Assembly (NCBI GenBank): GCA_963575715.1
Contig: CAUYTW010000044.1
Location: forward strand, 1 to 42,003
Length of the DNA stretch: 42,003 nt
DNA from: Gammaproteobacteria bacterium
GTDB taxonomy: Bacteria > Pseudomonadota > Gammaproteobacteria > CAIRSR01
Direction: 5' to 3'
Shown here one piece after another: positions 1,303 through 31,040 of the stretch. A model generated the notes under the pieces. It was given only the letters and a program-made list of their open reading frames with translations. It made no database searches and had not been told where the DNA came from. Each line of letters begins with the position of its first letter. Position 1 is the stretch's first letter. The position numbers and the translations under genes were made by a program.

Positions 1303-1700
1303 CAGTGTCTCAGCGAAACCTCGCCCTTCAAGGCTGGGAGGAAAGGAGACGGTTTTACAACCGTTCGGTAAAAACGCCGGTCTTTCCCAGCTGTCAGCCC
1401 TTACGGGACTAATGACGTACACCTTGCGGTGTAGCTCCCCCCTCGCCAAAGTTGCAACGCAGCTTTATCCTGCCGCAGTCGCAGGACTTGCAGCAGACCG
1501 TTTCGTAGTTACCCGTACCGTGTCTGCATCCGCCGCTTTCAAAAGCTCTGGAGTTGAGGAAGCGCCCCAAGGTGAGTTCCTGCGACTGCGCGCAGGACAA
1601 GCTTTTACTTCGTTGCAACGTAGTTCGATTTCTCGAACTAGGGCTGATCAATCTCGGACTTGTTTTCACAAGCCCCGTCCTTTAGGGCGGGGTGATTGAC
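1303..1700 (-). mobile_element. Structured repeat copy A (HEARO/IscB omega-RNA-like, no ORF)
   Basis: Full copy, about 398 bp, read here on the minus strand. The left end is GTCAATCACCCC with hairpin CCCCGTCC/GGGCGGGG (1676-1692 area). The right end is a CGCCCTT/AAGGGCG-type hairpin followed by TTTCGCTGAGACACTG and then ATGA, the start of the sugar transferase gene. Internal minus-strand stems include 1621-1640 (TAGTTCGA/TCGAACTA, loop GAAA), 1578-1597 (TCCTGCG/CGCAGGA), 1418-1433 (TACACC/GGTGTA, loop GCAA), 1398-1407 (loop GTAA) and 1349-1364 (ACGGTT/AACCGT, loop GTAA). The IS200/IS605 and HEARO assignment is inference from these ends, the GNRA loops and the ATGA junction. No coding frame in it is supported. 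Confidence 0.72.
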
Positions 1701-1741
1701 ATCCATCCTAAAGAAGTCACACAGACAGCGAATCATCTTAG

Positions 1742-1869
1742 AGGCTGTACAAAAACTATCATCTTACGAATCAGTATCCTACTCGCATGGATACAAGTGA
1801 GAAACGATAACGAGGACTTAATCTTGTAATTGTACTTTAATAACCAACCGGCTAGTTTTTATACAGCCT
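1742..1869. mobile_element. 128-bp MITE with 16-bp inverted ends and CTTAG target duplication
   Basis: The left end AGGCTGTACAAAAACT (1742-1757) and right end AGTTTTTATACAGCCT (1854-1869) are inverted repeats matching at 15 of 16 positions. Both sides carry CTTAG (1737-1741 and 1870-1874), which reads as a 5-bp target duplication. There is no open frame inside, so it is non-autonomous. The ends resemble those of DDE-type insertion sequences, but I cannot assign the family. It lies between copy A and the end of pilU and disrupts no gene. Confidence 0.7.
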
Positions 1870-1970
1870 CTTAGGTCGGGGTAGGACGGACTCGGTAAAA
1901 AAGATTTGGCCGGACTGCGCCTATAAAAGTGAATGGCAGTTTTTTCTACTTCGTGCGAACTAACCGAAAT

Positions 1971-3128
1971 CTATAAAGAGCCTTTCTTTTTTATCGAACG
2001 CAAAGACATCATGTCTGCTTCATTAATTTCTCCGGCTAAACTTAATCCTTGAGGAACCGCAGTTTGTTTGTTTTCACTTAAATTGATGCGTAAACGCAGA
2101 TTATTCTGGGAGTCAGCATTACGCAATGCCTCTTCCTGAGTAATTAATCCTTCCTTATAAAGCCGATAAAGGTCACCATCGAAAGTTCGCATCCCTTGTG
2201 GTTCTGAACGTTCCATTACCGCCTTGATGCCATCAAACTCACCACGCTTAATTAGATCGCTAATTAACGGACTGGCAAGAAGAACCTCGAAAGCGCCCAT
2301 ACGTCCTCCATGAATCCCAGGTATCAATCGCTGAGAAATTACTGCTTTAAGATTAAGAGATAAATCCATGAGGAGTTGGGAGCGTTTTTCTTCGGAGAAA
2401 AAATTGATGATGCGGTCGAGTGCTTGATTGGAATTATTTGAATGTAAGGTACTGATGCACAAGTGGCCGGTTTCGGCGAACGAAATCGCATGTTCCATAG
2501 TTTCGCGTTCACGGATTTCGCCAATAAGAATGACATCTGGTGCCTGGCGCAGAGTATTTTTGAGGGCATCTGCGTAACTTTCGGTATCGATGCCCACTTC
2601 ACGTTGATTGACGATTGATCGGCGGTTGGGGTGAAGGAATTCTACCGGGTCTTCGATGGTAATGATGTGACCAGAACTGTTGGTGTTACGATAATCAATC
2701 AATGAAGCAAGCGACGTTGATTTGCCAGAGCCAGTAGCCCCCACCACCAGTACTAAACCCCGTTTGAGCATGATGACTTTGGTCAGGATTGCAGGCAACC
2801 CGAGGGTTTCCATCGAAGGGATGACGGTACGAATATGGCGTACAACCATTGCCACCTGATTGCGCTGTTTGAAAATATTGACCCGAAAACGCCCAGCTCC
2901 TGCCAGCGAGTAGGCAAGATTCATCTCGGGGCGGCGCTCGAAGGTTTCGATCTGATCAGGCCGCATCAGCGGGTAGGCGATGCTCCTGACCCTATCCGGA
3001 GGAAACACCGTCGGTTCGACAGGCGTCATGAGACCATCCACCTTGATACTGGGAGGGGCACCAGTAGTCAGGTAAAGATCCGATGCACTTCGTGATACCA
3101 TCAATCTCAAATAGTCATCAAATTCCAT
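1971..3128 (-). CDS. pilU: Type IV pilus retraction ATPase PilU
   Basis: Hexameric AAA-type ATPase on the cytoplasmic side of the type IV pilus machine, accessory to PilT in pilus retraction and twitching. The 385-aa length and the start MEFDDYLRLMVSRSASDLYL match PilU rather than PilT. Walker A is GATGSGKS (130-137). The Asp and His boxes follow (HIITIEDPVEF and the GHLCISTLHSNN segment), with the family signature RQAPDVILIGEIR. It is the second gene after the D-amino-acid aminotransferase, 12 bp downstream, so the two are probably cotranscribed. PilT itself is not in the window. Confidence 0.93.
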   Translation of the reverse strand: MEFDDYLRLMVSRSASDLYLTTGAPPSIKVDGLMTPVEPTVFPPDRVRSIAYPLMRPDQIETFERRPEMNLAYSLAGAGRFRVNIFKQRNQVAMVVRHIRTVIPSMETLGLPAILTKVIMLKRGLVLVVGATGSGKSTSLASLIDYRNTNSSGHIITIEDPVEFLHPNRRSIVNQREVGIDTESYADALKNTLRQAPDVILIGEIRERETMEHAISFAETGHLCISTLHSNNSNQALDRIINFFSEEKRSQLLMDLSLNLKAVISQRLIPGIHGGRMGAFEVLLASPLISDLIKRGEFDGIKAVMERSEPQGMRTFDGDLYRLYKEGLITQEEALRNADSQNNLRLRINLSENKQTAVPQGLSLAGEINEADMMSLRSIKKKGSL

Positions 3129-3140
3129 TGCTTACTCAAC

Positions 3141-4040
3141 TCATTGTTTGTCTTCCAGCTGAGAAAGACGGGCTTTTTTCTTGAAGTCCTGGTAAAGGTC
3201 CATCATCCGTCGATAATGTGTTCCAGGGAGACCGTTTCCCACAGGAGCGGAATCAAGTATGACAACTGGAACTATTTCCTTAGTGGAAGAGGTCAGCCAG
3301 ATCTCATCTGCGTTATACAGATCCTCCATTGTCAACATTCCCTCGCGCGCGGGAATATTTTCGGCAATAGCTAATTCTAATACTAGGTCGCGGGTAATTC
3401 CGGGCAAAAGTAATGGTCCTTTGGACGGAGTAACCACTTTTCCATCGTGCACGACAAAAACATTGCTGACGGCACCTTCGGTTACTTGTCCATCGCGGAC
3501 AAAAATGGCATCGAATGCAGCAACATCAATAGCCTGCTGGCGGAATAAAACATTGGGAAGCAAAGAAATAACCTTGAGATCGCAATGTTTCCAGCGAATA
3601 TCGTCCACCAGGATCGCACTCACACCTTTCCTGCGTTTCTCCTCTGGGAGCGGTAGTAATGGAGTGGCCATCATAAATACGCTGGGAAGTACTCCTACCG
3701 GGAAGGCGTGGTCACGATTCAATCCAACCCCTCGAGTTACCTGAAGATAAACAGAGAGATCACCGCCACCATTGCGGGTCACCAGATCGATAAAGAGATC
3801 GCTCCACTGCTTACTGTTTAAGGGATTGTCACAACGAATGCTGGTTAGACTATGATTCAGACGGCGTAAATGCTCTGCAAGACGAAATGGATAACCGCCA
3901 TAAACAGGTATTACCTCGTAGACGCCATCGCCAAAAAGGAATCCACGATCTAAAACTGATACTTGTGCTTGATTAACGGGAAGAAACTTACCATTGAGAT
4001 AAACAATAGGTATGAATGGGATATCAAAATTGACGTGCAT
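3141..4040 (-). CDS. dat: D-amino-acid aminotransferase (class IV PLP enzyme)
   Basis: Cytoplasmic pyridoxal-phosphate enzyme that transaminates D-alanine with 2-oxoglutarate to D-glutamate and pyruvate, feeding peptidoglycan precursors. Fold-type IV signatures are visible: YLNGKFLP near the start, DRGFLFGDGVYEV (31-43), the probable Schiff-base lysine in DLKVISLLPNVL (Lys156), and VTEGAVSNVFVV followed by PGITRDLVLELA. The 299-aa length is slightly above the usual size. Branched-chain aminotransferase and aminodeoxychorismate lyase share the fold; the DLKxxxLLPNVL segment favours D-amino-acid aminotransferase. It precedes pilU in the same direction, an arrangement with no obvious functional link. 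Confidence 0.85.
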   Translation of the reverse strand: MHVNFDIPFIPIVYLNGKFLPVNQAQVSVLDRGFLFGDGVYEVIPVYGGYPFRLAEHLRRLNHSLTSIRCDNPLNSKQWSDLFIDLVTRNGGGDLSVYLQVTRGVGLNRDHAFPVGVLPSVFMMATPLLPLPEEKRRKGVSAILVDDIRWKHCDLKVISLLPNVLFRQQAIDVAAFDAIFVRDGQVTEGAVSNVFVVHDGKVVTPSKGPLLLPGITRDLVLELAIAENIPAREGMLTMEDLYNADEIWLTSSTKEIVPVVILDSAPVGNGLPGTHYRRMMDLYQDFKKKARLSQLEDKQ

Positions 4041-4175
4041 GAGCAGAATAGGTGATGAGTACCACGCTTGCCAAGGTGAAAATCGCTCTAAATTTAATGG
4101 AGAGGGAGGGGAAAAACTTGATCAGCCACGGCTATTCGAGTCTTTACCCCTCCTTAATTCTTAATTAAAATTACC

Positions 4176-4505
4176 CTAGGATAGAGATATAATCCACGCA
4201 ATAATTTTATTTAAATCATCATCAGAAATCGTGGGATGTGGCGGCATTGGAATTGGACCCCAATTACCTGCGCCACCACTCTTTACCTTAGCTACCAGTT
4301 TTTCCTTGGCACCATCGACTCCCTTATATTTGGTGGCTATATCTTTATAAGAAGGACCAACGATTTTCATATCCTGTTTATGGCAAGCCACGCAGTCTTT
4401 GCCAGCCAAAAGTGCTTCACCCTCAGCAGCCATTGCCGAAATGGAAATTCCGGTAGCGATTAATCCAACTACTCCTACTACAGCTATTTTGTTGATAAGA
4501 TTCAT
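4176..4505 (-). CDS. Periplasmic cytochrome c551/c552-like, monohaem
   Basis: Small class I c-type cytochrome (109 aa) for periplasmic electron transfer. Residues 1-27 are a Sec signal peptide ending AMA. Haem is attached at CVACH (38-42), and the axial Met is probably Met87 in the typical WGPIPMPPH segment. The C-terminus DLNKIIAWIISL fits the last helix. The ATGA start codon is directly preceded by the right end of repeat copy B1, which supplies GGAGAC seven bases or so upstream, so translation seems to depend on the repeat. The partner oxidase or reductase is not evident here. Downstream, 4080-4175 contains a long imperfect inverted repeat of GGAGGGG/CCCCTCC that could end the transcript. 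Confidence 0.9.
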   Translation of the reverse strand: MNLINKIAVVGVVGLIATGISISAMAAEGEALLAGKDCVACHKQDMKIVGPSYKDIATKYKGVDGAKEKLVAKVKSGGAGNWGPIPMPPHPTISDDDLNKIIAWIISLS

Positions 4506-4716
4506 TCAGAGTCTCCGAGAAACCTCGCCCTTGAGGGCGGGGAGGAAAGAGGAAAGGAGACGGTTTTGCAACCGTCTAGTAAAAATGCCGGTCTTTCCCG
4601 GCGGTCAGCCCTTACGCAGCCAAAGTGACGAATGCCTTTCGGCTTCGCTCCTCTCGCCAAGGTTGCAACCTAGCTTTGGTTCTTGCGAACCTTGCGACAA
4701 ACCGTTTCGTTATCAT
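4506..4716 (-). mobile_element. Structured repeat copy B1 (right half)
   Basis: Right-end half of the repeat, read on the minus strand towards the cytochrome gene. The right end has hairpin CGCCC/GGGCG, then TTTCTCGGAGACTCTGA, then ATGA. Stems: GACGGTT/AACCGTC with GCAA loop (4559-4576), GCCGG/CCGGC around GAAAGA (4590-4606 area), and GGTTC/GAACC with GCAA loop (4678-4691). The left half is missing, because copy B2 begins exactly at an internal ATGA (minus-strand reading of 4713-4716). Confidence 0.65.
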
Positions 4717-5052
4717 CCAAATTCAGCGCGGAAACCCCTGGCTTTAGCCATGGTGAGGAAGCGCCACCTCCTGTTTTTTCTTGCTGTTGAAGTTGCCAGT
4801 CTTTCCCGGCTGTCAACCCTTACGAGTCTGGTGACACACACCTTGGGGTGAGGCTCCCCTCGCCAAAGTTGCAGCGCAGCTTCAGTTCGATGTTTTGAAC
4901 CTTGCGACACACCGTTTCGTCCTACTCCTAAGGTTGTCTACATCTGCCGCTTTCAATGCTTGAGGTTGCCTATCATGCTGATAGGCATGAGCAAGGCAAG
5001 TCTGGCATTTCGTTGCAACGTCGCCAGACAATAGTACGCGAAACTTTCGCGT
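4717..5052 (-). mobile_element. Structured repeat copy B2, apparently inserted into B1
   Basis: Second, nearly full copy on the minus strand. Its right end (hairpin CCCCTGGC/GCCATGG-like at about 4733-4757, as in copy C) lies against the ATGA inside B1. Internal stems include 4967-4987 (TGCCTATC/GATAGGCA) at the same relative place where copies A and G have different but equally paired stems. The outer end is an 8-bp-arm hairpin ACGCGAAA/TTTCGCGT (5036-5052) in place of the GCCC-type left hairpin of copies A, C and F. No coding potential is supported. Confidence 0.6.
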
Positions 5053-5600
5053 CATGGATAACCTATAGATGGTTCATAATCATAAAAATCATACACAATG
5101 TCAAATGCTGGTAGTAGATATGTTTTTTTGACACACCCACGAATAAATTATGTAGGATTCCTGATGACACGGCGAGAACCAGAATGCTGGAAGTGAAACA
5201 CCCCAACCTTGAAAGGCGCAACCGATTCAGGGGTCATATCAGGCAACTTTAGCCAGTGTCAGTGGCTCTACTACGCTCTGCAGCTTCAAGGGCCGTAGAT
5301 ACTTTAAGGCCGCCGAATGGTGGTTGTACATCAGACCTGAAGTCATGGCGGCCATGGCTTTTCAAACACGCACAAGATATTACGCTCGGGACTTCCCCGG
5401 GCAACCGCGTACCTCATAATTTGTTAAAGAGCACCAGAATTTTAGCACCAATGCAGCGCATCGCAAAAATCAAAAAACGATTTTGGATTAAATATTATAA
5501 ATAATATACCATCCCATAAAGGGATATTCCCATTTTGACCGACAATTAAAATTAATTTAGTTTTTTTTATTCAAACATATGATTTCAAATGTTATTTTTT
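5053..5600. other. Non-coding leader region before atp operon; unexplained open frame and boxA-like motif
   Basis: No gene is recognised. Two things stand out. First, the plus strand has a 68-codon frame open from 5213 to a TAA at 5417-5419 with no good start; its product contains KAAEWWLYIRPEVMAAMAF and I do not recognise it, so it may be the tail of a decayed gene. Second, on the minus strand, TGCTCTTTAACAAA (5433-5420) is identical to the boxA antitermination core of rRNA leaders. It is preceded by a promoter-like TTGCGA (5466-5461), 16 bp, TAAAAT (5444-5439). A CATGGC/GCCATG palindrome occurs near 5345-5357. A TTGACA with a weak TATGTA (5128-5154) is a further possible plus-strand promoter. 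Confidence 0.35.
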
Positions 5601-5624
5601 TATTAGATTTCTACAAAAAACTGG

Positions 5625-5654
5625 TTGACTCCCCATTTGGATCTTCTTTATACT
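5625..5654 (+). promoter_or_regulatory. Sigma-70 promoter of the atp operon
   Basis: TTGACT (5625-5630), an 18-bp spacer and TATACT (5649-5654) closely match the housekeeping consensus. They lie about 75 bp upstream of atpI in an A+T-rich region. This is the best promoter seen in the window and the likely start of the atpIBFHAGDC transcript. Confidence 0.7.
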
Positions 5655-5728
5655 GTTATGGTATTATTACATTATATCAATCACACCCTCGAACCTACGG
5701 GGTCGATGGTATTTTTTGTTGAACTTGG

Positions 5729-6094
5729 ATGAGTTATACTTCAGTCCTTTTGGGAAAAGGAAGGTGGCGTCTTTTATTTTTTCAAGTCGTCATTATTTCT
5801 TTTATTGGATGTTTGGTAGCGATAAATTATGGGTATTATTCTGCACTCTCCATTCTTTATGGTGGATTTATTTCCATGCTGGTAGCATGGTTGTTAGTTT
5901 GGCGATTACAAAAAATGAATGCCTCCACTAAAGTAATGACAGGTTTTGGAGTAATGCATATTTATATAGGAATGGTTGAGCGTTTTTTGTTGGTTGCGTT
6001 GGGGATGGGTGTAGGCATGGGTTGGTTACATCTTCCACCATTTTTAATAATTGTAGGATTTGCCGCTGCGCAGCTAGCGTATGTTTTTAATTGA
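5729..6094 (+). CDS. atpI: ATP synthase protein I
   Basis: Small membrane protein (121 aa) with four hydrophobic segments, at the first position of the atp operon as in other gammaproteobacteria. Members are thought to help assemble the c-ring and have been linked to Mg2+/Ca2+ handling; they are not part of the finished enzyme. Segments such as SALSILYGGFISMLVAWLL and a C-terminus ending in an alternating hydrophobic run fit the family. Start ATG 5729 has only a weak ribosome site, and another frame also covers its 5' end. It is notable that AtpI, an assembly aid for the c-ring, remains although atpE has left the operon. Confidence 0.8.
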   Translation: MSYTSVLLGKGRWRLLFFQVVIISFIGCLVAINYGYYSALSILYGGFISMLVAWLLVWRLQKMNASTKVMTGFGVMHIYIGMVERFLLVALGMGVGMGWLHLPPFLIIVGFAAAQLAYVFN

Positions 6095-6152
6095 GATAAT
6101 CATTCAACCGTTCATTCACGGTTGCAGGCATTAAATATTTTCCGGCATTTGA

Positions 6153-6959
<807 letters not shown>

Positions 6960-6986
6960 ATTATCTTAAAGTATTACAAATACTAT

Positions 6987-7032
6987 ACTAATACCTTAAT
7001 ACGGTTACGACTAATACCTTAATACGGTTACG
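6987..7032. repeat. Perfect tandem repeat, 2 x 23 bp, where atpE should be
   Basis: Two identical 23-bp units (6987-7009 and 7010-7032), each starting ACTAATACC and ending GGTTACG, lie between atpB and atpF. This is where atpE is found in almost all proteobacterial atp operons. The repeat may be a scar of the deletion of atpE or simply a recent slippage duplication. Confidence 0.9.
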
Positions 7033-7100
7033 GAATAATGATCCATGAATCTTGTCCGTTTACACTGTGAAGGTAGTGATAATTTTTTAGGAGCTTTTTT

Positions 7101-7571
7101 ATGAACGTTACCGCCACATTGCTCGGTCAGATGATCACTTTTTCGGTGCTCGTCATATTCATTAAAGAGTTTCTGTGGGGTCCCGTGATCCAAGCGTTGG
7201 AGGATCGCAAGAAACGTATTGCAGATGGTCTCGCGGCTGCGGAACGAGGCCATCATGAACGAGAGTTGGGACAAAAAAGGGCCATAGAAATCATTCGTGA
7301 AGCTCGACAGTCAGCTGCAGAAATGATTGAGCAAGCACAGAATAGGGCTCGTGATATTCTTGAGGATACCGAAGAAGAAGCACGTGCAGCGGCTGAACGC
7401 CTGATGCTCGCAGCACGGACGGAAATTGATCAAGAAGCGAGTCGTGCTAGGGAGCAACTACGTCATGAATTGGTTGTCCTTGCCGTCGCCGCTGCTGAAC
7501 GGATTTTGCGTAAAGAAATAGATGTTAAGGAGCATGAGCAACTGCTTGCTCATTTTGCCGCCAACCTTTAA
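7101..7571 (+). CDS. atpF: ATP synthase subunit b
   Basis: Peripheral-stalk subunit b (156 aa, as in Escherichia coli). It has one N-terminal membrane segment (about 5-25, beginning MNVTATLLGQMITFSVLVIF), then a long charged coiled coil rich in Ala, Glu and Arg that dimerises and holds F1 through the delta subunit. AGGAGC six bases before ATG 7101 is a strong ribosome site. The gene follows the atpE-less gap, and atpH starts 26 bp after its stop. Confidence 0.95.
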   Translation: MNVTATLLGQMITFSVLVIFIKEFLWGPVIQALEDRKKRIADGLAAAERGHHERELGQKRAIEIIREARQSAAEMIEQAQNRARDILEDTEEEARAAAERLMLAARTEIDQEASRAREQLRHELVVLAVAAAERILRKEIDVKEHEQLLAHFAANL

Positions 7572-7597
7572 TTTAAGTCGTCGTTTAAGGCATCGCC

Positions 7598-8134
7598 ATG
7601 TCGGATAAGACCACCATTGCCCGTCCTTATGCGCGTGCTATTTTTCAACAGGCACGACGGGATGATGCTTTAGAACACTGGCTGGAAATGCTTACTCTTG
7701 CCGCTAATATCGTGAAAGACTCCATGATGTCGGAGATTCTTGACAATCCGTTGATCAGTCGGAATCAAATTGGGGAAATGATTTTTGATATGGTACAGGA
7801 TCGCTTCTCGGAGGGAGGGCGTAATCTAATCCGGATATTGGCGGTCAATGATCGACTTGCCGCGTTGCCAGAGATTGTCACGCTGTTCGACCAACTCAAG
7901 GCTGAAGCCGAGAATCGGCTGGAAGCGGAAATTACTTCTGCCTATCCCATGGATCCCGCCCAGGAGCGGCTCCTTACACGGGCATTGGAAAAACGGTTTG
8001 GCCACGCTATCAATATAAAAGTCCATGTGGATCAAAATCTCATCGGTGGTGTCATCATACATATCGGTGATGTGGTGATCGACGGTTCATTGCGGGCTGG
8101 GTTGACGCAGATGGCCAACGAACTGCGTATTTAA
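7598..8134 (+). CDS. atpH: ATP synthase subunit delta
   Basis: Delta (OSCP-like) subunit, 178 aa, linking the top of the alpha/beta hexamer to the b dimer. Typical features are the N-terminal [18 protein letters not shown], the central LLxxKRF-equivalent [10 protein letters not shown], and the C-terminal signature [25 protein letters not shown], split here between strand and helix. It has ATG 7598 and lies directly between atpF and atpA as expected. Confidence 0.95.
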
Positions 8135-8154
8135 GCCTTGAGGAACTTTTGATT

Positions 8155-9699: not shown

Positions 9700-9788
9700 C
9701 GGGGGTGGTAGCCCCTCTTAAAAGGGGTTATTCCGAGGTCATTGTGATTAATTTAGTGCAATGGCGGCGACCGAGCGAGTAGACGAGC

Positions 9789-10655: not shown

Positions 10656-10707
10656 TGCGGCTTTGGTAGTGCAGAAGAGCTATTAGAAATATCGTTGGGG
10701 GGCGTGA

Positions 10708-12120
<1,413 letters not shown>

Positions 12121-12142
12121 TGAATGAGCGGGAGAAGCCAAA

Positions 12143-13410: not shown

Positions 13411-13791
13411 GTCAACCACCCCACGGCTAAAGCCGGGGGCTTGTGAAGTCAGATTCACAGGCCCGGTTGACCAGCCTGAGTCCGGGAAATCGGGCTACGT
13501 TGCAACAAAGTAAAAGACTCACCCTGGAGCGCTTCCTCAACTCCAGGCTCTGAAAGCGGCGGATGCAGACAAACTCGGGGGTAGTACGAAACGGCCTGCT
13601 GCAAGGTTCCGGAAATGGAACCGAAGCTGTGTTGCAACATTGGCGAGGGGAGCCGGGTAGCAATACCCGCGTCACCAGGCCCTTGCGGGCTGACAGCCGG
13701 GAAAGACCGGCAATTTTCACTGGACGGCTATTCCTACGAAAACCGTCCCCTTTCTTCACCATGGCTAAAGCCAGGGGTATCTCGGGGACTA
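13411..13791 (+). mobile_element. Structured repeat copy C (full, upstream of glmU)
   Basis: Full copy, 381 bp, read on the plus strand. The left end is GTCAACCACCCC with a CCACGGC/GCCGGGG hairpin. The right end is a TGGCTAAAGCCA hairpin, then TCGGGGACTA, then ATGATG. Stems: AGTCCGG/TCGGGCT with GAAA loop (about 13480-13498), CCTGGAG/CTCCAGG (13523-13529 with 13541-13547), GGTTCC/GGAACC with GAAA loop (13605-13622), CGGGTA/TACCCG with GCAA loop (13654-13669), and GCCGG/CCGGC around GAAAGA (about 13695-13711). Several differ in sequence from copies A and G while keeping pairing. Confidence 0.72.
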
Positions 13792-13833
13792 ATGATGAGT
13801 AACTGGAGTAACTATTTTGGAATTACCCACTGA
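13792..13833 (+). other. 13-codon leader ORF overlapping the glmU start
   Basis: The ATGATG directly after copy C opens a short frame (MMSNWSNYFGITH) that ends at 13833, 17 bp inside glmU in another frame. If one T of the TTTT run at 13815-13818 were absent, this frame would run straight into GlmU. It may therefore be the original glmU start with a frameshift, or a small coupled leader. Confidence 0.4.
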
Positions 13834-18883: not shown

Positions 18884-18884
18884 T

Positions 18885-19520: not shown

Positions 19521-19554
19521 GTTTGCGTTTGTTAACAGGCGAATGCAGTCGATA

Positions 19555-20729: not shown

Positions 20730-20731
20730 AA

Positions 20732-22175: not shown

Positions 22176-22226
22176 AAAAAAATCCCTGCCCACCTCGTTT
22201 AGGTAGCGAGACAGGCGGTAGAACAA

Positions 22227-22616
22227 AAAATTAAGGGCGGGACCGAATAATCAGCGCCGCTTCCTAGTGGGTCCCAGGATCCTTCCCATGGAATGGAATC
22301 GCCAACCGGAATGACACTGTTACGAAGAGGGCCAGCGAAGAACCAGTCACTTTACACATCTTGCGTTCATCGCGCCAGTCGGGATAGCGGAGAAAGCTTG
22401 CAAGCACCATAATTGAGATCTGCTTGATTCTAAAAATTTAGACATTGAAACTCACCATGGATGGTGAGCGACCGCGCTGAGGTAAGCCATTGCGTCGCCC
22501 GGCTTAGTTATTTTTCGGTATCTAAGCATTCAGGGCGGACTCCAAAATACCAATAACAACCACGTTAAGAACCTTTTCGATTATTCTGGATTGATGGGTT
22601 TTTACGCCGAAAATCT
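22227..22616. other. Intergenic region; possible diverged repeat copy before waaF
   Basis: No gene is seen in these 390 bp between the divergent helicase and waaF. The last 27 bases (GGGTTTTTACGCCGAAAATCT, interrupted, then ATGA) resemble the right end of copy G (GGGTTTTCCACGCCGAGAATTT, interrupted, then ATGA), so a diverged repeat of the G/H type may precede waaF. A near-perfect palindrome CTCACCATGGATGGTGAG lies at 22451-22468 and could be a hairpin or operator. Confidence 0.35.
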
Positions 22617-23630
22617 ATGAATGCCAATCACATATTGATAATTGCGCCCGCCTGGATCGGAGATTTCATCATGGCCCAAAGTCTATTTCAGGTATTACGG
22701 GAACGTAATCCGAAAACGGTCATTGATATCGTCGCCCCTGCCTGGACCGTGCCATTGGCGGCGCGCATGCCTGATGTTGGCGAGGCGTTCCCGTTACTCA
22801 TTCAACATGGCAAATTGGCGCTGGCGACCCGCTGGCGGCTTGGTCGGACATTGCGCGAACGGCATTATCAACAGGCGATTGTGTTGCCGCGCTCATTCAA
22901 GGCCGCCTTGGTACCCTTTGTCGCTCGGGCAACGCGACGTACCGGTTATCTGGGAGAGATGCGTTGGGGACTGCTCAACGATATCCGTTCAGGGATTGCA
23001 GAACGTACGGTGGATCGCTTCGTTGCCCTTGGCATGGAGCCTGGCGTGGTCTTGCCTGATCCATTGCCACTGCCGCGCTTGACGGCGGACAGGGATGCCG
23101 CCGTCGCAGTTCTCGCCAGACTCAGCATCGCTCCGCCAACGAAACCCGTGCTGGTACTATGCCCAGGAGCAGAATATGGACCTGCCAAGCGTTGGCCCGT
23201 CACCCATTTCGCGGCGGTCGCCCACAAGGCGACCGTCAGCGGCTGGCAAGTGTGGCTGTTCGGTTCCAATCATGACGCGACGCTCACCACCGAGATCCAG
23301 CAGCTCTCGGGAAAAGTCACTGTTGACTTCGCTGGACGCTTGTCCCTTGTGGAAGCTATCGATCTTTTATCGCTGGCCAGTGCCGTAGTCACGAATGATT
23401 CCGGCCTGATGCACATGGCAGCGGCCTTGGACCGTCCACTCGTGGCACTGTTTGGCTCTTCCGACCCGCGCCATACTCCACCATTGAGCGCGCACGCGAC
23501 CATCTTGCATCGCCGCCTACCATGCTCGCCATGTCTCCGCCGCGTTTGTCCACGAAGCCATATGAAATGTCTCCAGGGATTAACACCCTGTGATGTACTT
23601 TCCGCGCTTCCACAGATACCTAGGGCTTAA
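22617..23630 (+). CDS. waaF: ADP-heptose:LPS heptosyltransferase II
   Basis: Glycosyltransferase (family 9, 337 aa) adding the second heptose to the lipopolysaccharide inner core at the cytoplasmic face of the inner membrane. Signatures: N-terminal ILIIAPAWIGDFIMAQSLF, the middle LVLCPGAEYGPAKRWP, and the donor-binding TNDSGLMHMAAALDRPLVALFGSSDPRHTPP. The Cys-rich end CSPCLRRVCPRSHMKCL is usual for WaaF. It starts at ATGAATGCC (22617). It converges with prfA, whose stop is 8 bp away. Confidence 0.93.
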   Translation: MNANHILIIAPAWIGDFIMAQSLFQVLRERNPKTVIDIVAPAWTVPLAARMPDVGEAFPLLIQHGKLALATRWRLGRTLRERHYQQAIVLPRSFKAALVPFVARATRRTGYLGEMRWGLLNDIRSGIAERTVDRFVALGMEPGVVLPDPLPLPRLTADRDAAVAVLARLSIAPPTKPVLVLCPGAEYGPAKRWPVTHFAAVAHKATVSGWQVWLFGSNHDATLTTEIQQLSGKVTVDFAGRLSLVEAIDLLSLASAVVTNDSGLMHMAAALDRPLVALFGSSDPRHTPPLSAHATILHRRLPCSPCLRRVCPRSHMKCLQGLTPCDVLSALPQIPRA

Positions 23631-23637
23631 ACCATTT

Positions 23638-24726
23638 TCACGGGTTATCTGCGAGGGCCGCGAGCTGATCAGCCTGATATTCCTGGATTAATGGTTCTAT
23701 CATTAGGTCAAGATTACCATCCATCAAGCCATCCAAACGGTAAAGCGTCAGGTTGACACGGTGGTCGGTGATTCGATTCTGGGGATAATTGTAGGTACGG
23801 ATTTTTTCCGAGCGATCACCGCTACCCACCAACAAACGGCGGGTCGTGGACTGTTCCGATTGACGACGTTCCTGCTCGGCGCTGAGTAATTTAGCTTGCA
23901 AGACCGACATGGCGCGCGCGCGGTTCTTATGCTGCGAGCGTTCTTCTTGACATTCGACCACAATGCCACTGGGCAAGTGAGTGATGCGGATCGCTGATTC
24001 GGTTTTGTTGACATGCTGCCCACCCGCCCCGCTGGAGCGGAAGGTATCCACCTTGAGGTCGGCGGAATTGATGGATATTTCCTCAATGGCGTCCAACTCC
24101 GGCATCACCGCCACGGTGCAGGCCGAAGTATGAATTCGGCCTTGAGCCTCGGTAGCCGGGACACGCTGTACCCGGTGTGCTCCCGATTCAAATTTGAGCC
24201 GGGAATAGGCCCCCTGTCCCACGACCCTGGTAATCACCTCTTTGTAGCCGCCAGCTTCTCCGATGCTTGCGCTTAACATTTCAACTTGCCAACCCCTGCC
24301 TTCCGCGTAGCGACCATACATCCGCAACAAATCCCCAGCAAACAAGGCAGCCTCGTTGCCACCGGTTCCCGCACGAATTTCGAGGAATAAGTTGGCGTCG
24401 TCGTGGGGATCGCGTGGTAGCATCAAGAGTTGTAACTCTTTCTCCAACATGAGAATTCGTTCTTTAATGGCGACTAATTCATCTACAGCCAAAGAACGCA
24501 AATCAGGATCATCGTCCCGCAGCCATGATTGCGTCGCCTCCTGGTCGCTCCAAGCGGCGCGTAATCGTGAGTGAGTTTCCACGATTGGCTCAAGCTGGGC
24601 ATACTCCATGGACAAGGCACGGAAACGTTCCAGATTGGAAATACTCTCTGGATCGGCAAGCAGGGCCGCGAGTTCCTCGCGGCGTTCGCTTAAATTATCA
24701 AGTTTATTATGAATGGAAGGGTTCAC
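23638..24726 (-). CDS. prfA: Peptide chain release factor 1
   Basis: Class I release factor (362 aa) that reads UAA and UAG and triggers peptide release. The codon-recognition tripeptide is PAT (190-192) and the catalytic GGQ is at 235-237 ([14 protein letters not shown]), whose Gln is normally methylated by PrmC. The start is GTG 24726. The usual neighbours hemA and prmC are absent, so the gene stands alone. Confidence 0.96.
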
Positions 24727-24827
24727 GAGGTTGGGTGCGAGTAGTTGATAGGTGGTTAGTGTTTGTAGCCGGGGTATCCAAAATAATGGCTATCATTGCC
24801 AGATCTATTGCCGGAGTTTTCCATTTT

Positions 24828-25682
24828 ATGAAACGGCTGGCACAATGGAAGAATAACAATCCCATTGAGTGTCATGAGTTGAAAATTTCTACCTGGAATG
24901 TGAACTCTCTACGGGTACGGCTGCCTCAGGTGGTGGACTGGATCGCATTAGAGCGCCCCAACCTGCTGGCCTTGCAGGAAACCAAGCTGCCAGATTCCGC
25001 TTTTCCGGATGCGGAGTTGGTGGCACTGGGCTACCATTCAATCCATAGTGGCCAGCCTACCTATAATGGGGTAGCCTTATTGAGTCTCGCCCCGCCAACG
25101 GAAGTTCAGATCGGCATACCGGGTTGGGATGACCCCCAACGCCGTCTCTTGGCTGCCAGCTACGCAGCACCCAATTTACCGCATGGAAAGTTGCGAATAG
25201 TCAACCTCTATGCTCCCAATGGCCAGGCAGTTGGTGGTGACAAGTATGCCTATAAACTCGATTGGTTTGTCCGGCTGAACGCCTGGTTAAAAGAAGAATT
25301 AACTATTTATCCCAATATAGCGGTGATGGGTGATTACAACATTGCCCCCGAGGATCGAGACGTTCATGATCCGGTTGCCTGGAAAGGAAATATCGCAGTG
25401 AGCGCCCAAGAACGATCAGCCTTCTATGATCTGTTAGCTTTGGGGTTCACTGATGCTTTTCGGCTCTTTACTCAAAAAGCGCACAGCTTTAGTTGGTGGG
25501 ATTACCGATTCCGTGCCTTTCATCGTAATCGCGGATTACGCATCGACCACATTCTGTTAAGTCACCCGCTTACTGCCTACTGCGCGAGTTGTCATATAGA
25601 CAAGGGTCCACGACACTTATCACGTCCTTCGGACCACACTCCCGTGGTTGCTGAATTGTTTTGTCCTAATACCGCTATTTAA
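24828..25682 (+). CDS. xth: Exodeoxyribonuclease III
   Basis: AP endonuclease and 3'-5' exonuclease of the endonuclease/exonuclease/phosphatase fold, for base excision repair. Motifs in order: STWNVNSLR, LQETKLPD (metal Glu), GDYNIAPEDRDVHDP, RIDHILLS and SDHTPVVAEL (catalytic Asp-His). The start is uncertain: ATG 24828 is used here. ATG 24786 would add 14 codons, and TTG 24879 (LKISTWNV) would give the most typical N-terminus and a 267-aa protein. The open frame further upstream overlaps prfA antisense and is not coding. Confidence 0.88.
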   Translation: MKRLAQWKNNNPIECHELKISTWNVNSLRVRLPQVVDWIALERPNLLALQETKLPDSAFPDAELVALGYHSIHSGQPTYNGVALLSLAPPTEVQIGIPGWDDPQRRLLAASYAAPNLPHGKLRIVNLYAPNGQAVGGDKYAYKLDWFVRLNAWLKEELTIYPNIAVMGDYNIAPEDRDVHDPVAWKGNIAVSAQERSAFYDLLALGFTDAFRLFTQKAHSFSWWDYRFRAFHRNRGLRIDHILLSHPLTAYCASCHIDKGPRHLSRPSDHTPVVAELFCPNTAI

Positions 25683-25790
25683 CCAGCCATAACCACATTA
25701 CGGCGAAACTGTATCGTGGAATTACGTATAAACGGTGTAATAGGCACTCAAGGATGCTTACTCAATTTTGGATCCTACGGTTAGCAGTTA

Positions 25791-25879
25791 AACCGGCATT
25801 TTAATATATTTATATCTATATCCCAGCTACCTAGTAATACCTCCCCGCCCTAAAGGGCGAGGTTTCTTCGGAGACACTG
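25791..25879 (+). mobile_element. Structured repeat copy E (right-end fragment, upstream of cysC)
   Basis: Fragment read on the plus strand. It begins with ACCGGCATTTT as in the other copies, then has unrelated A+T-rich sequence. It ends in the right-end hairpin CCGCCC/GGGCGAGG (about 25847-25863), then TTTCTTCGGAGACACTG, then ATGAAAG, the cysC start. GGAG stands six bases before ATG. Confidence 0.65.
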
Positions 25880-26521
25880 ATGAAAGACAATGTTCTGGAT
25901 GAAATAAATAACACCCGCGCCACCAATATCACCTGGCACGAAGGGCATGTGGGACGCGCCCACCGCGAAAATCTTCTCCAGCAACGCGGGGCGACCTTGT
26001 GGTTTACGGGTTTGTCTGGATCAGGCAAAAGCACTACCGCCTTTACTCTAGAGCATCAATTGATCGAACGCGGACACCTGGCCTACGTGCTCGATGGTGA
26101 CAACATTCGTCATGGACTCAATAAAAACCTGGGCTTTTCCGCAGAGGAACGGGCAGAAAATATCCGTCGCATCGGTGAGGTGAGCAGACTTTTTGCGGAT
26201 ACCGGAATTATTTCGATCACCAGTTTTATCTCACCCTACCGTGCCGATCGCGCCATGGTGCGCGCCATGCACCAAGCAGATGGTTTGCCCTTCCTGGAGA
26301 TCCACATGTCGACCTCAATTGAGGTGTGTGAACGACGAGATGTCAAAGGTTTATACAAGAAAGCACGCACGGGGCAGATCAAAAATTTTACCGGAATTGA
26401 TGACCCCTATGAGGCACCCAAGGCTGCTGAGTTTATTATTGATTCGGCGTACATCACGCCTCCAGAGAGCGCGATGTTGATCATCGGAGAACTCGAACGG
26501 CGCGGCATCATTCCCTTGTAA
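25880..26521 (+). CDS. cysC: Adenylylsulfate kinase
   Basis: Phosphorylates adenylylsulfate to PAPS for sulfate assimilation (213 aa). The P-loop is GLSGSGKS (44-51). Other family segments are YVLDGDNIRHGLNKNLGFS and the IGEVSRLFADTGIISITSFISPYR region, and FTGIDDPYEAP. No cysN/cysD or other sulfur genes lie next to it. The start ATG and its Shine-Dalgarno come directly from repeat copy E, and repeat copy F begins 26 bp after the stop, so the gene is bracketed by repeat copies in the same orientation. Confidence 0.94.
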   Translation: MKDNVLDEINNTRATNITWHEGHVGRAHRENLLQQRGATLWFTGLSGSGKSTTAFTLEHQLIERGHLAYVLDGDNIRHGLNKNLGFSAEERAENIRRIGEVSRLFADTGIISITSFISPYRADRAMVRAMHQADGLPFLEIHMSTSIEVCERRDVKGLYKKARTGQIKNFTGIDDPYEAPKAAEFIIDSAYITPPESAMLIIGELERRGIIPL

Positions 26522-26546
26522 AATCGTCGCGTTTCCTAATGCGCTC

Positions 26547-26677
26547 GCCAATCACCCCGCCCTAAAAGGAGGGGCTTGTGAAAACAAGTCCGAGATTGGC
26601 CAGCGTTTTTACCGGACGGTTGTAAAACCGTCTCCTTTCCTCCTCGCCCTGAAGGGCGAGGAGGAAAGGAGACACTG
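26547..26677 (+). mobile_element. Structured repeat copy F (internally deleted, both ends kept)
   Basis: A 131-bp copy on the plus strand. The left end is CCAATCACCCCGCCC with its hairpin and CTTGTGAAAACAAG. The right end has GACGGTT/AACCGTC with GTAA loop (26615-26632), hairpin CTCGCCCT/AGGGCGAG, then GGAGACACTG and ATGA. About 260 bp of the middle is gone. Here the ATGA does not start a recognisable plus-strand gene; it is the 3' end of the decayed paralogue on the other strand. Confidence 0.68.
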
Positions 26678-27040
26678 ATGATTTTTCCTTGAACGACTCC
26701 ATGGATGGAGGACGACCCCGAAAGCTAGGTGGGGTAGCCGAGGAGGACAGAGCGCCACGGCGTTGTAATCGGTTGTGTAGCCGTTGAATTAGCGATATTC
26801 TCAAACTTTGGCTAGGGTATGCGGTTCTGTAAAGAAGACCCGGAAGAACAAGTAAAACTCGCTGGGCACGTCGACGAAAACCAAGTCGCTACGGGCGGTA
26901 GGCCCGAACGTTATGCGCGTGGAGCGGCACAAGCCACCGAGGGTCGGCTCAATTAAGTCGAGTCGATTGCCTCGGGCCGCCAAGAAGCGCGAATTTTCCG
27001 CACTGATGATCTGACGATGGACCGAAACGAAATCAGTCAC
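26678..27040 (-). pseudogene. Decayed paralogue of the small gene at 38565-38927
   Basis: The minus-strand reading begins with GTG at 27040 and GGAGTTTCGCC upstream, the same as at 38554-38565. It shares TDFxSVHxxxISxENSRF, then LGGLxRSTRITxGPTARS, then near its end GRPPSxESFxE. The 38-kb copy is one frame. Here a stop interrupts it near 26801 and the rest lies in another frame, and the 3' end meets repeat copy F. Some blocks are nearly identical in DNA, for example CGCTCCACGCGCATAACGT. It diverges from secA, whose start is 41 bp away. Confidence 0.6.
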
Positions 27041-27081
27041 GGCGAAACTCCACGTTATTTAACTTCTATGAAGATTCCAAC

Positions 27082-29811
27082 ATGTTAACTAAGTTTTTAC
27101 GCAAAATATTCGGCAGCCGTAACGATCGTGTCTTGCGTCGTATGGGTAAGGTAGTTCCGCGTATCAATGCCCTAGAACCATCGATAATGGCCCTTTCCGA
27201 TTCAGAGCTACGCGCCAAAACAGATGAATTTCGTCAACGCCTCACGGCGGGCGCGTCCCTGGATGATCTCCTGCCCGAAGTTTTTACCGTAGTGCGCGAG
27301 GCAGCTCGAAGGGTACTAGATATGCGCCATTTCGACGTACAGCTCGTCGGAGGCATGGTCCTACATGAGGGACGTATCGCCGAAATGCGTACCGGTGAGG
27401 GTAAAACCCTCGTGGCGACTCTGTCGGTTTACCTCAATGCTTTGTCCGGCAATGGGGTCCATGTGGTCACAGTGAATGATTACCTGGCGCGACGCGATGC
27501 CGCCTGGATGGGACAGGTTTATCAATTTTTGGGAATGAGTGTGGGAGTCGTTGTCGCGCATCAAGATCAACAAGAAAAACGCGCTGCCTACGCCGCCGAT
27601 GTCACTTACGGTACCAACAACGAATTTGGGTTTGATTATCTGCGCGATAACATGGCTTTCACTGCAGCAGACAAGATGCAGCGTCCGTTGCACTATGCCA
27701 TCGTGGACGAAGTGGACTCGATTCTCATCGACGAAGCCCGCACGCCTCTCATCATTTCTGGAGCATCGGAGGAAAGTTCTGAGCTTTACGTGCGTATGAA
27801 TGCCCTAGTGCCGCGCCTTATAAAGCAACAGTCTGAGGATGGCCCAGGTGATTACTCAGTGGACGAAAAGGCGCGACAAGTTTTGCTGACTGAGGATGGT
27901 CATCAACGTCTGGAGGAGTTATTGAGCACCGAAGGGCTACTGCGCGAAGGCGAAAGTCTCTATGACCCGGGGCATATTTCCCTCATGCACCATTTTTACG
28001 CTGCGCTGCGCGCCCATGTCTTGTTCCGCCGCGACGTGGATTACGTGGTGCAAAATGGTCAGGTGGTTATTGTGGATGAATTCACCGGGCGTACCATGCA
28101 GGGACGGCGCTGGTCGGATGGATTGCATCAAGCAGTAGAGGCCAAGGAAAAGGTAGCAATACAAGCAGAAAATCAAACTCTTGCTTCCATCACTTTTCAG
28201 AATTATTTCCGTCTTTACAAAAAGCTCGCCGGTATGACCGGTACAGCAGACACCGAAGCCTACGAGTTCCAACAGATTTATGGTCTTGAGGTGATTGTCA
28301 TCCCTACTCACCATCCTATGATTCGTGTGGATCGTGGCGATGTGGTCTATCTCACCACTAAGGAAAAATTTGTAGCCATCATCGAGGACATCAAGGACTG
28401 TCGCGCTCGGCAACAGCCGGTCTTGGTGGGAACTACTTCCATCGAGACCTCTGAATACCTGTCCGGGCTACTCAAGCACGAAAATATTCTGCATCAGGTA
28501 CTAAATGCCAAATACCACGAGCAGGAAGCGCAAATAGTGGCCCAAGCAGGCCGTCCCGGCAGCATTACGATCGCCACCAACATGGCAGGCCGGGGTACTG
28601 ATATCGTGCTTGGCGGTAATTGGAAAGCCGAGATAGCGGTATTGGAAAACCCCACTCCAGAAATATTGCAAACCATTAAAACTGCCTGGCAGGAACGTCA
28701 CCGACAGGTCGTAGCCGCAGGAGGATTGCATATCATTGGCACCGAGCGTCATGAATCTCGCCGCATCGACAATCAATTACGCGGACGCTCAGGACGCCAA
28801 GGTGATCCTGGGTCAAGCCGTTTTTATCTTTCCCTGCAAGACAATTTAATGCGGATTTTTGCCTCAGACCGTATCGGCGGATTAATGCAAAAACTCGGCA
28901 TGGAAGAAGGCGAGGCCATTGAACACCCCTGGGTAACCAAGGCCATTGAAAACGCCCAGCGTAAAGTGGAAGCGCGCAATTTTGATATTCGCAAGCAACT
29001 TTTGGAATATGATGATGTCGCCAACGATCAACGTAAGGTAATTTACGAACAGCGCAATGAATTACTGGCCGCCGAAGATCTTGCCGAAACCGTCGGAACA
29101 ATCCGTGCTGATGTGATTAACGACATCATTAATCTTTATATCCCACATAATACGCTTGAGGAACAATGGAACATTCCTGGTCTGGTTACGGCACTGGAAC
29201 GGGATTGTTCTATCAACCTACCGCTCGGGGAATGGCTAGAACATGAATCGAGCCTTGACGAAACTGGATTGCGTGCCCGGATCCTCAGCGAGGTTGAAGC
29301 TGCCTATACCGCGAAGGAAACCCTCGCGGGTTCCTCGGTGATGCGTCACTTTGAAAAGGCCATTGTGATGCAGGTTTTGGATTCTTTGTGGAAAGATCAC
29401 CTAGCGGCGATGGATTACCTGCGTCAAGGTATCCACCTACGTGGTTATGCCCAAAAAAATCCCAAACAAGAATACAAACGCGAAGCCTTCGAGATGTTTC
29501 AACAAATGCTGGAGCGTTTCAAACACGACGTAACCGGTATCCTTTCCCGTGTCCAAGTTCGCGCCGAAGAAGACGTGGCTGCTGTTGAAGCGCAGCGGCG
29601 GACCAACATGCAGATGAATTTCCAGCATGCTCCAGCATTACCGATGATTGGCGATGGGGAAGAAGAGAAAGAAAATGGAGGCCCCGCAGTGAATACTTCA
29701 CCGGAGGCGCACGCTCCCTTTGTGCGCCAAGGTCCCAAGGTGGGACGTAATGATGCCTGCCCCTGTGGATCAGGCAAGAAATATAAACACTGCCATGGAA
29801 AACTCAGTTAA
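27082..29811 (+). CDS. secA: Preprotein translocase ATPase SecA
   Basis: Motor of the Sec pathway (909 aa), pushing unfolded precursors through SecYEG. Walker A is [11 protein letters not shown] (about residue 102 onward), the DEAD-like box is [17 protein letters not shown], the helicase part includes [17 protein letters not shown] and [13 protein letters not shown], and the cross-linking and scaffold domains follow. The C-terminus ends in the zinc/SecB-binding motif [13 protein letters not shown] (893-905). It starts at ATG 27082 with a weak ribosome site. A secM-type regulator does not precede it. Confidence 0.97.
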
Positions 29812-29945
29812 GGATGTTGAGTCCCCCCTTACTTAATGAAGGCGAAGACTCAAACGAGACTAAAGTCAACTAACAGGAAAACGGCGCTTTCTCCACCAGG
29901 CATAGAGGCTAGTGGTTTCTGCGCCGTAAATACAGGATGATTTAT

Positions 29946-30277
29946 AAATCTTTGGCGAGAAAACCCCGCAATCGCGAAGCGTTGCGGGGATGAATCGCTG
30001 TCTTGTGTAAGTGTCCGATTTTTAATGCGATAAGCCGAGAACCGGACAAACTCGTAGATCCTCTTCGCCAATGTTGGAAAGGCTTTTTACACTGAACGCA
30101 CCGACCGTTTCCGGTCTTTTAACGCACAGCGACAGAGCAGGGGACTTGAGGAGCATCCCAGGGTGTCATGACCCAACCAACGTAGTGGAGTAACATTCCA
30201 CTGAGGCTAATCAACCAGTTACCCTTGCAAGTCACCCCACAAGCCCCTCGATCCCGAAGGGTCGATGGGTGATTGAC
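29946..30277 (-). mobile_element. Structured repeat copy H (downstream of atpE)
   Basis: Full-length diverged copy read on the minus strand. The left end is GTCAATCACCC with an ATCGACCC/GGGATCGAGG hairpin, then CTTGTGGGGTGAC. Stems: AGTGGA/TCCACT (about 30182-30200) before the conserved CTACGTTG, GACCG/CGGTC with GAAA loop (30103-30116), and the right hairpin CCCCGCAA/TTGCGGGG (29964-29989) followed by TTTTCTCGCC and GATTT. It stops against ATAA rather than ATGA. The last hairpin with its T run may also terminate the atpE transcript. Internal CAACATTGGCGAAGAGG matches copy C (CAACATTGGCGAGGGG). Confidence 0.6.
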
Positions 30278-30304
30278 TTTGTCAAGAAAAGGATGGAGCG
30301 GGTA

Positions 30305-30329
30305 ACGAACAGGCGTATTGCCTGTTCGT
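30305..30329 (-). terminator. Perfect hairpin after atpE
   Basis: ACGAACAGGC and GCCTGTTCGT pair over 10 bp around a 5-base loop, starting 13 bp after the atpE stop. There is no U run, so it may be an mRNA-stabilising hairpin rather than an intrinsic terminator. Confidence 0.45.
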
Positions 30330-30341
30330 ACCATAAAACGA

Positions 30342-30641
30342 TTATCCTAACGCATGTGCCGCCGCTTGAAGCGCACCGACAAAAGGATTCGCAAACAAAA
30401 ACCACATACCGAACGCAAGGATGATAAATGGAAATGATTCCATCAAGCCACCAAAAATAAATGTGTTGACCATTAAAAGTGGACGCATTTCCGGTTGACG
30501 TGAAATTCCCTCCATGGTCTTCGAGCAAATCAGACCCCAACCAATCGCGGATCCAACACCAGCGGCTGCCAAAACTACGCAGACGCCAACGGCGGTATAT
30601 GCATAAATCGTAGCAAGCATATCAACAGTTATCGTATTCAT
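30342..30641 (-). CDS. atpE: ATP synthase subunit c, outside the atp operon
   Basis: Proteolipid c subunit of Fo (99 aa), two membrane helices joined by a polar loop. The loop is GISRQPEM (Arg-Gln-Pro at 48-50), the Gly-rich first helix is GVGSAIGWG, and the ion-binding carboxylate is Glu68 in GLMESFPFI. Gammaproteobacterial c subunits usually have Asp here and end soon after; this one has Glu and a C-terminal ANPFVGALQAAAHALG. It is the only c subunit in the window and the atp operon lacks one, so it very probably serves that enzyme. ATG 30641 is preceded directly by repeat copy G; upstream in-frame codons are repeat sequence. Copy H lies downstream. Confidence 0.9.
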   Translation of the reverse strand: MNTITVDMLATIYAYTAVGVCVVLAAAGVGSAIGWGLICSKTMEGISRQPEMRPLLMVNTFIFGGLMESFPFIILAFGMWFLFANPFVGALQAAAHALG

Positions 30642-31040
30642 AAATTCTCGGCGTGGAAAACCCTCAATCTCGTAGGATCGAGGGGGAGGAAAAGCTGCCT
30701 TTGGTGTTGAAACCAACGGCTAGCCCAAAATAGATGCTGGTCTTTCCCGGCTGCCAGGCCCTTACGGGCCTAGTGATACACACCTTTCGGTGTGGCTCCC
30801 TTCGTCAAGGTTGCAACGCAGCTTTAGGTTCTTGCGAATTTTTGCAACAAACCGTTTCGTTCACCCCTGAATTGTCTGCATATGCTGCTTTCAGAGCTAC
30901 GAACTGCCTGTCTGCCGACAGGCAGGAGGAAGCATTCGTAGATGAGCCTTGTACTTAGTTACAACGTAGCCACGATGTTTTGTAGCTCAGGCTGGTAAAT
31001 CAGTGCTTTATTACCCCGCCATTTAAAGGAAGGTACTTGC
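30642..31040 (-). mobile_element. Structured repeat copy G (upstream of atpE)
   Basis: Full copy of about 399 bp on the minus strand. The right end is hairpin CCCTCGATC/GATTGAGGG, then TTTTCCACGCCGAGAATTT, then ATGA, the atpE start. Stems: CACACC/GGTGTG with GAAA loop (30779-30794), GGCCC/GGGCC with GTAA loop (30757-30770), an outer CTACGAA/TTCGTAG (30897-30903 with 30935-30941) enclosing CTGCCTGTC/GACAGGCAG (30904-30925). The left hairpin near 31015-31035 is degenerate, so that boundary is approximate. Confidence 0.68.

Follow-up and report, generated by a model that had tools for sequence, protein, structure and literature searches.

The window analysed here, a stretch of 42,003 nucleotides (contig CAUYTW010000044.1, positions 1 to 42,003), belongs to a gammaproteobacterial metagenome-assembled genome (MAG) in which copies of a HEARO-type element, the omega RNA of IscB, end precisely before ATGA and occupy the start codons of genes far more often than expected. 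Our analysis indicates that these are probably non-autonomous IS200/IS605-type elements with one terminus serving as a portable ribosome-binding site (RBS). The evidence comprises the HEARO identity of the elements, their junction rule, an excess at start codons in three genomes, sites that are unoccupied in a relative and the Shine-Dalgarno (SD)-like ends found in this lineage. The genomes concerned are that of the window itself (G000, 3.70 Mb), a genus-mate (G001) and a member of another genus (G002).

The HEARO covariance model (RF02033) matched the window at five places, three of them over the gathering score, with the remaining window copies scoring lower or giving no match, and G000 at 136 places at E up to 1, with 63 over the gathering score, which bears out the HEARO-type identity that the first-pass annotation had proposed from the letters of the window. 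IscB (PF14239) gave five matches in G000, two of them long open reading frames (ORFs), and since 136 HEARO matches stand against these five, most copies carry no ORF, again as proposed. Both iscB and the Y1 transposase, which the annotation had suggested looking for elsewhere in the genome, are present: the transposase gave four matches in G000, one of them directly downstream of IscB, at C351 only. The C351 IscB has 392 aa and that of G001 (C187) 417 aa, the latter encoded downstream of a HEARO. No TnpA in cis was found for the ATGA families II-IV described below, and the elements were presumably moved in trans by the IscB-linked Y1 transposase. Two IscB loci deserve separate description. At C62 of G000 (L001 1755-2726) a 323-aa IscB ORF lies in a type I element and lacks, relative to the G001 protein, the HNH region and the stretch preceding it; judged from sequence, it is possibly a natural nuclease-dead IscB, or simply a deletion. 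At C187 of G001 (L233 9889-11100) the IscB ORF stands beside a HEARO core and is followed by an inserted transposase ORF, which we take to be IS630-like. A wide distribution of the element was considered and set aside, HEARO matches being found in just 5 of 37 relatives and, with stricter filters, in just 2 of 398 genomes of the phylum, the own genome included in both counts.

The true right end lies about 120-140 nt beyond the point where the Rfam model stops, and families were defined by the terminal sequence read downstream of HEARO matches. Type I ends in CGCGGGCATTTG before GTGA, types II, IIa and IIc in TCTCGG[AG]GACA[ATC]TG before ATGA, type III in GCGCCGAATTTGG and type IV in CACGCCGAGGATTT, both before ATGA, and type V in CGCCAAAGATTT before ATAA. 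When 614 kb of G000 were scanned with the motifs without the target, 172 right ends were followed by ATGA (119), GTGA (24), ATAA (10) or other tetramers (19), so that exactly ATGA or GTGA stands at 143 of the 172 junctions, type V using ATAA. ATGA also follows 76 of 87 ends in a second G000 sample (495 kb, chosen from 3'-end models), and the same 3'-end scan on reversed DNA returned no matches for the ATGA families. These counts leave out 137 type I motif matches with at least three mismatches (of 309 clusters), a few of which are probably real, as well as type I matches in G001, ends that lack [AG]TGA or fall at the end of a contig and, from the ATGA counts, type V ends; one match (C304:118) and the downstream side of another (C293:27110) fall outside the sequence examined. 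Where both ends are present, copies mostly span 317-489 nt; three measure 154-193 nt, and some relics consist of the terminal hairpin alone. The 3'-end models of types II, III and IV (E up to 0.01) matched G000 at least 150, 135 and 89 times, at least 374 in all before deduplication; some matches are weak and some common to several models, which leaves roughly 350 ends. The same models yielded 73, 0 and 8 matches in G001, 93, 2 and 0 in G002 and none in a further genome, G003. A target-site duplication was not seen, none of the 34 listed left flanks of start-located copies ending in ATGA.

To assess start-codon occupancy, the two flanks of copies with both ends identified were rejoined and each side of the ATGA was scored for coding potential; further ATGA sites preceded by a noncoding base served as the null. 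Copies with the 3' end only were scored on their downstream side, as were all copies of the second sample and of G002, where the null alone underwent the upstream test. This procedure replaced an earlier one, which had placed 62 of 149 [AG]TGA junctions no more than 30 nt from a start, because G001 gene calls ran into the element. In G000, 67 of 122 ATGA junctions are start codons, as against 142/1499 null sites and a pentamer-matched expectation of 13.1; the share is 29/64 for copies with both ends known and 38/58 for those with the 3' end only. With 47/76 junctions at starts in the second sample (null 104/882), occupancy in G000 amounts to 5 to 6 times the null in both samples. The excess recurs in G001 (18/43 versus 149/1148, matched expectation 6.9) and in G002 (16/23 versus 33/220, with a slightly looser coding threshold on both sides), whereas the GTGA family displays none (1/23 versus 30/1146). 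From their N-termini, we take genes at G000 junctions to include RplM, RplS, Frr, PheT, LpxC, AccC and AroK, and further GalU, Ddl, MurJ, RseP and RpmH, the last being too short for the start test; those in G002 presumably include AcpP, NusA, TrpS and HU. The gene accB was not counted, its start lying 22 nt past the junction. Nine of the 26 start-located copies of the first sample that have a co-directional upstream gene lie within 25 nt of its stop codon and should therefore be read through in operon transcripts.

The excess might in principle arise from gene calling, through chance long ORFs after ATGA or wrongly set starts, an explanation that we regard as highly improbable. It draws on the facts that our own simple gene caller was used, that copies with the 3' end only, those of the second sample and those of G002 were scored without the upstream test while their nulls were scored with it, and that four more of 65 both-end copies had downstream coding yet failed the upstream test. 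Against it, the first-sample null rises only to 207/1499 when the upstream test is dropped, the starts of G001 orthologues coincide with the same ATG or differ from it by at most a codon, and annotated starts agree in 10 of the 26 named plasmid elements discussed below.

Comparison with the genus-mate supports insertion into pre-existing start regions. Sixteen comparisons of G000 with G001 were made, comprising [AG]TGA junctions at which non-element alignment begins at most 10 nt from the junction, the cytochrome c pair, which was included though its aligned block begins at base 109, since the gene starts correspond, and seven further rows. At 14 of these 16 occupied G000 starts the aligned site in G001 is empty. 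Among the 14, L255 5327 was scored as not a start, C210 failed the upstream criterion only, the RidA-like gene at C312 starts a codon off in G001, L281 9077 has ATGG there, and at C334 an element lies some 70 nt farther upstream in G001. Some empty sites in G001 show clear native SD sequences, e.g., AAGGAGGAAAATCATC immediately before the ATG. One G000 operon (L255 5327, 6616 and 7447; span 5327-7600) carries elements of types III, II and IIa at three consecutive starts, and G001 has plain SD sequences at the three corresponding starts. The remaining two sites, cytochrome c and thiG, carry an element in G001 as well, by its spacer of another subfamily. A single shared insertion at cytochrome c was considered and found no support, independent insertion there being as likely because the spacers of G000 and G001 look like those of different subfamilies. 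Covariance matches, sites left empty in a relative and an ATGA bias of junctions across the genome, whose absence was named in the first-pass annotation as grounds for refuting it, were thus all found; its observation is confirmed and its interpretation supported.

The ATGA families have SD-like sequence at their ends, separated from the junction by a few bases: CGGAGAC or CGGGGAC in type II and CGAGGATTT in type IV, while in type III a hairpin brings AGGAGG near the start. With the SD core defined as GGAG, GAGG or AGGA within 15 nt of the junction, it is present in start-located copies of type IIc (29/34), IV (13/18) and IIa (9/13), and in type II in 2/7, or 7/7 when GGGG and AAGG are counted, as compared with 91/324 other ATG genes of our gene caller. 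Start-located copies of types III and IIIb have no core near the junction and carry AGGAG 5' of the terminal hairpin in 40/42 cases. Types I and V have none (0/23 and 0/4); type I, the GTGA family, is also the one that shows no excess at starts. The SD belongs to the element as such, since it is about equally frequent in copies of the same families away from starts. Some individual left flanks also show clear native SD sequences stranded upstream of the insertion. We infer that ribosomes use these element ends for translation. The anatomy of a mobile 5' untranslated region, which the first-pass annotation had proposed, is thus present in the form of an SD-like end and a displaced native leader; its function in expression is putative.

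Similar arrangements occur in IscB elements of named plasmids. Querying with the G001 IscB returned 82 plasmid records; 28 of the 40 listed were examined, chosen for organism spread, 26 of them annotated, and right ends were judged by eye, with no null computed for this set. All ten records searched with Rfam scored over the HEARO gathering threshold. Ten of the 26 annotated elements end exactly where the following gene has its annotated start: 5/9 in Pseudomonadota (both Polaromonas, Cupriavidus basilensis, Cupriavidus sp. USMAA2-4 and Pseudomonas veronii), 4/14 in Cyanobacteriota (Trichormus variabilis at parB, Anabaena cylindrica, Nostoc C052 and Chroococcidiopsis, the last at ATGG) and 1/2 in Deinococcota (Deinococcus KNUC1210 at parB); the Geoalkalibacter element is not at a start, and the uncertain Nostoc C057 was counted likewise. 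Immediately ahead of the junction, the start-located ends of the cyanobacteria and Deinococcus have GAGG, GGAG or GGAGG. One cyanobacterial and one Deinococcus plasmid (L314, L327) each have the IscB element between parA and parB, at the start of parB.

Several results weigh against the reading as mobile elements with a portable RBS. The SD is frequent in copies away from starts (IIc 22/25, IIa 11/17, IV 5/5, III 18/22, and type II 11/16 with GGGG counted), and the comparison of start-located with other copies gave no sign of selection for the element SD at genes. In the consensus fold the SD is paired within a stem; a composite type IIc fold contains an upstream GACGG/CCGUC hairpin that competes with the SD-hiding stem, and the type III AGGAG was unpaired in the one composite folded. 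Stranded native SD sequences are not significantly enriched at occupied starts (8/29 versus 7/52, p 0.14; in G001 0/5 versus 1/15). Three type V ends with [AG]TGA in the second sample, outside the 47/76, scored as starts (3/3) without an SD core, and half of the ten start-located plasmid elements, all of them from Pseudomonadota, likewise lack a core before the junction. Copies with the 3' end only appeared commoner at starts (38/58 versus 29/65, p 0.029 overall), as if the core were lost and the 3' end kept there, yet the tendency is not significant within families (Cochran-Mantel-Haenszel p 0.28). Asymmetric decay at starts, with the SD arm kept and the 5' arm lost, was also considered and showed no difference (p 0.69). 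No 16S gene, and hence no anti-SD sequence, was found in the three MAGs. No Y1 transposase was found in G002.

The claim that ATGA start codons are favoured landing sites stands as a description of where copies are found, a pattern that insertion preference and loss elsewhere would produce alike. Pure survivorship, by which insertion is blind among ATGA sites, copies within genes are purged, other intergenic ones are lost and those at starts are trapped by the need for the element's RBS, comes close to an even chance. It is favoured by the age gradient of type II copies in G001, where 9/28 of those with at most one mismatch are at starts versus 6/9 of the older ones, by the youngest type II copies of G000 (3/14 at starts, not significant, p 0.14) and by the lower HEARO scores of start-located copies with both ends (median 73 versus 91 bits, p 0.037). 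Age and family are confounded, however, the score difference is not significant within single families, and even the young burst in G001 exceeds the null (9/28 versus 149/1148, p 0.008). This excess among young copies, together with the occupation of the thiG and cytochrome c starts in G000 and G001 by seemingly different subfamilies, would suit insertion steered to translation-initiation regions, e.g., through a longer target motif or through single strands exposed where ribosomes are loaded onto starts. Such steering is conceivable but rather doubtful: by our estimate, with so many starts occupied, chance alone would yield about two shared sites, and only some of the excess can be put down to the more frequent ATGAA context (13.1 expected versus 67). 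That young G001 copies are enriched less than old ones yet above the null suggests that both targeting and survival contribute.

The elements might also be cis-regulators, in which an omega RNA guided by the left flank, that is, the old RBS, with the start codon as target-adjacent motif (TAM), recruits IscB or dead IscB to control the gene or to home into empty alleles. The geometry follows from the guide and TAM layout of IscB, and the IscB ORF without its HNH region at C62, so read from its sequence, would be a candidate effector. Just two long IscB ORFs face hundreds of copies, and 38 of the 67 start-located copies have no usable HEARO left end, which makes this explanation unlikely.

Within the window, nine copies in the same orientation relative to their target had been described as ending before ATGA, or ATAA in the case of copy H. 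Copies A, B1, B2, C and E to H were confirmed, and Pfam, run on ten window proteins only, agrees with the genes assigned behind A, B1, E and G. Copy A (1303..1700, minus strand), a full element of 398 nt with a type IIc end (Rfam 83.3 bits at 1431-1700, and sequence), adjoins the ATGA at 1302-1299 that starts the sugar transferase (PF02397), a start scored on the rejoined flanks; a native SD-like AGGA is left stranded immediately left of the element. Copy B1 (4506..4716, minus), a 3' part with a type IIc end bearing CGGAGAC (sequence; end-model match 4507-4579), precedes the cytochrome c start (ATGA, 4505; Pfam). Copy B2 (4717..5060, minus; left end approximate) has a type III end (sequence; end-model match 4717-4781, 83.5 bits), and across 4506-5060 it is nested in B1, placed before an ATGA internal to B1. 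Copy E (25840..25879, plus), a relic reduced to the terminal hairpin and CGGAGACACTG (sequence and end scan), ends at the ATGA that starts cysC, the adenosine 5'-phosphosulfate kinase (PF01583), and the matching site is empty in G001 (L202). Copy G (30642..31040, minus), a type IV element (Rfam 52.4 bits; type IV end model 80.1 bits), adjoins the ATGA (30641) that starts atpE, ATP synthase subunit c (PF00137).

Two assignments were revised. Copy D (22592..22616, plus), a decayed type IV-like end, does stand before a start ATG at 22617, but the gene is not sppA; it encodes a family-9 heptosyltransferase, waaF-like (PF01075). As the motif scan missed it, copy D rests on reading the sequence. Copy C (13411..13794, plus), a full element with a type IIa end (Rfam 97 bits; end scan), ends before ATGA as described for the glmU leader, but this ATGA (13795) is the beginning of a 12-codon ORF that precedes glmU (GlmU domains by Pfam); glmU itself most likely starts at TTG 13817, so that copy C, on our reading, is not at a start codon. 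The nearest named match of this GlmU, from an uncultured Thiotrichales MAG, has 70% identity, in a collection from which very near records may be missing. Neither of the other two copies is at a start: copy F (about 26549..26677, plus; Rfam 38 bits and sequence), an internally deleted mini element of about 130 nt retaining the left and right termini only, ends before an ATGA that is no start, and copy H (29946..30277, minus; Rfam 127.7 bits and sequence), a full element with a type V end, before ATAA. Another repeat, of about 370 bp and with a GGACGACCCCG motif, seems unrelated and is present in inverted copies at 26686-27052 and 38553-38917 and also adjoins HEARO copies at C336. A perfect 33-bp inverted repeat at 41796-42003 runs to the contig end and is perhaps an assembly artefact.

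HEARO RNAs often lack an ORF and, as reportedly described by Weinberg in 2009, adjoin ATGA or GTGA. The present elements share with them the covariance match and the structured core, the frequent lack of an ORF and this reported junction, and differ in the hundreds of mostly ORF-less ends per genome, the start-codon excess, the SD-bearing ends and the terminal-hairpin relics. With the IscB transposons of the IS200/IS605 kind, non-autonomous derivatives included, they have in common terminal hairpins, no target duplication seen and, at C351, IscB and the Y1 TnpA in tandem; they are set apart by the lack of a TnpA found in cis for families II-IV and by the ATGA target at the right end. Miniature inverted-repeat transposable elements (MITEs) are short, multi-copy, without an ORF and presumably mobile in trans; the present elements resemble them in these respects, and a structured RNA core, exact start-codon placement and a built-in SD-like end distinguish them. 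In marine Beggiatoaceae, TAACTGA repeats are described as abundant, intergenic and mostly located just before start codons, including those of some presumably essential genes, with canonical RBSs rare in these regions (PMC4679880). The likeness in abundance and position is evident, although those repeats are heptamers not known to be mobile, whereas the present repeat carries SD-like sequence. A literature search returned no paper on HEARO insertion at start codons, though an earlier mention may exist.

The right end of the element thus joins precisely to ATGA (GTGA in one family, ATAA in another), and in the ATGA families it consists of a hairpin and an SD-like sequence close to the junction. 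Where that ATGA is a start codon, we propose that the native RBS would be pushed about 400 nt upstream and replaced by the element's own, and the gene, even if essential and inside an operon, would keep being translated. Copies would accordingly build up at start codons, as interchangeable and mobile translation-initiation regions, because the element supplies its own RBS and the gene stays translated. More broadly, and at slightly less than even odds, IscB/HEARO elements across Pseudomonadota, Cyanobacteriota and Deinococcota may use start codons as a niche, ATGA serving as TAM and start codon at once, with right ends evolved as RBSs; some 200 genes in this lineage (extrapolated from the roughly 350 ends), a number of them essential, might then be translated from a transposon end. 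If true, the Cas9-ancestor systems would gain an ecological trick, namely landing where their own RBS can make the insertion harmless, which would help explain the multiplication of ORF-less omega-RNA copies. It would also show that many translation-initiation regions have been replaced in a wild lineage, suggesting natural plug-in RBS parts, and the question of standalone omega RNAs would become testable gene by gene.

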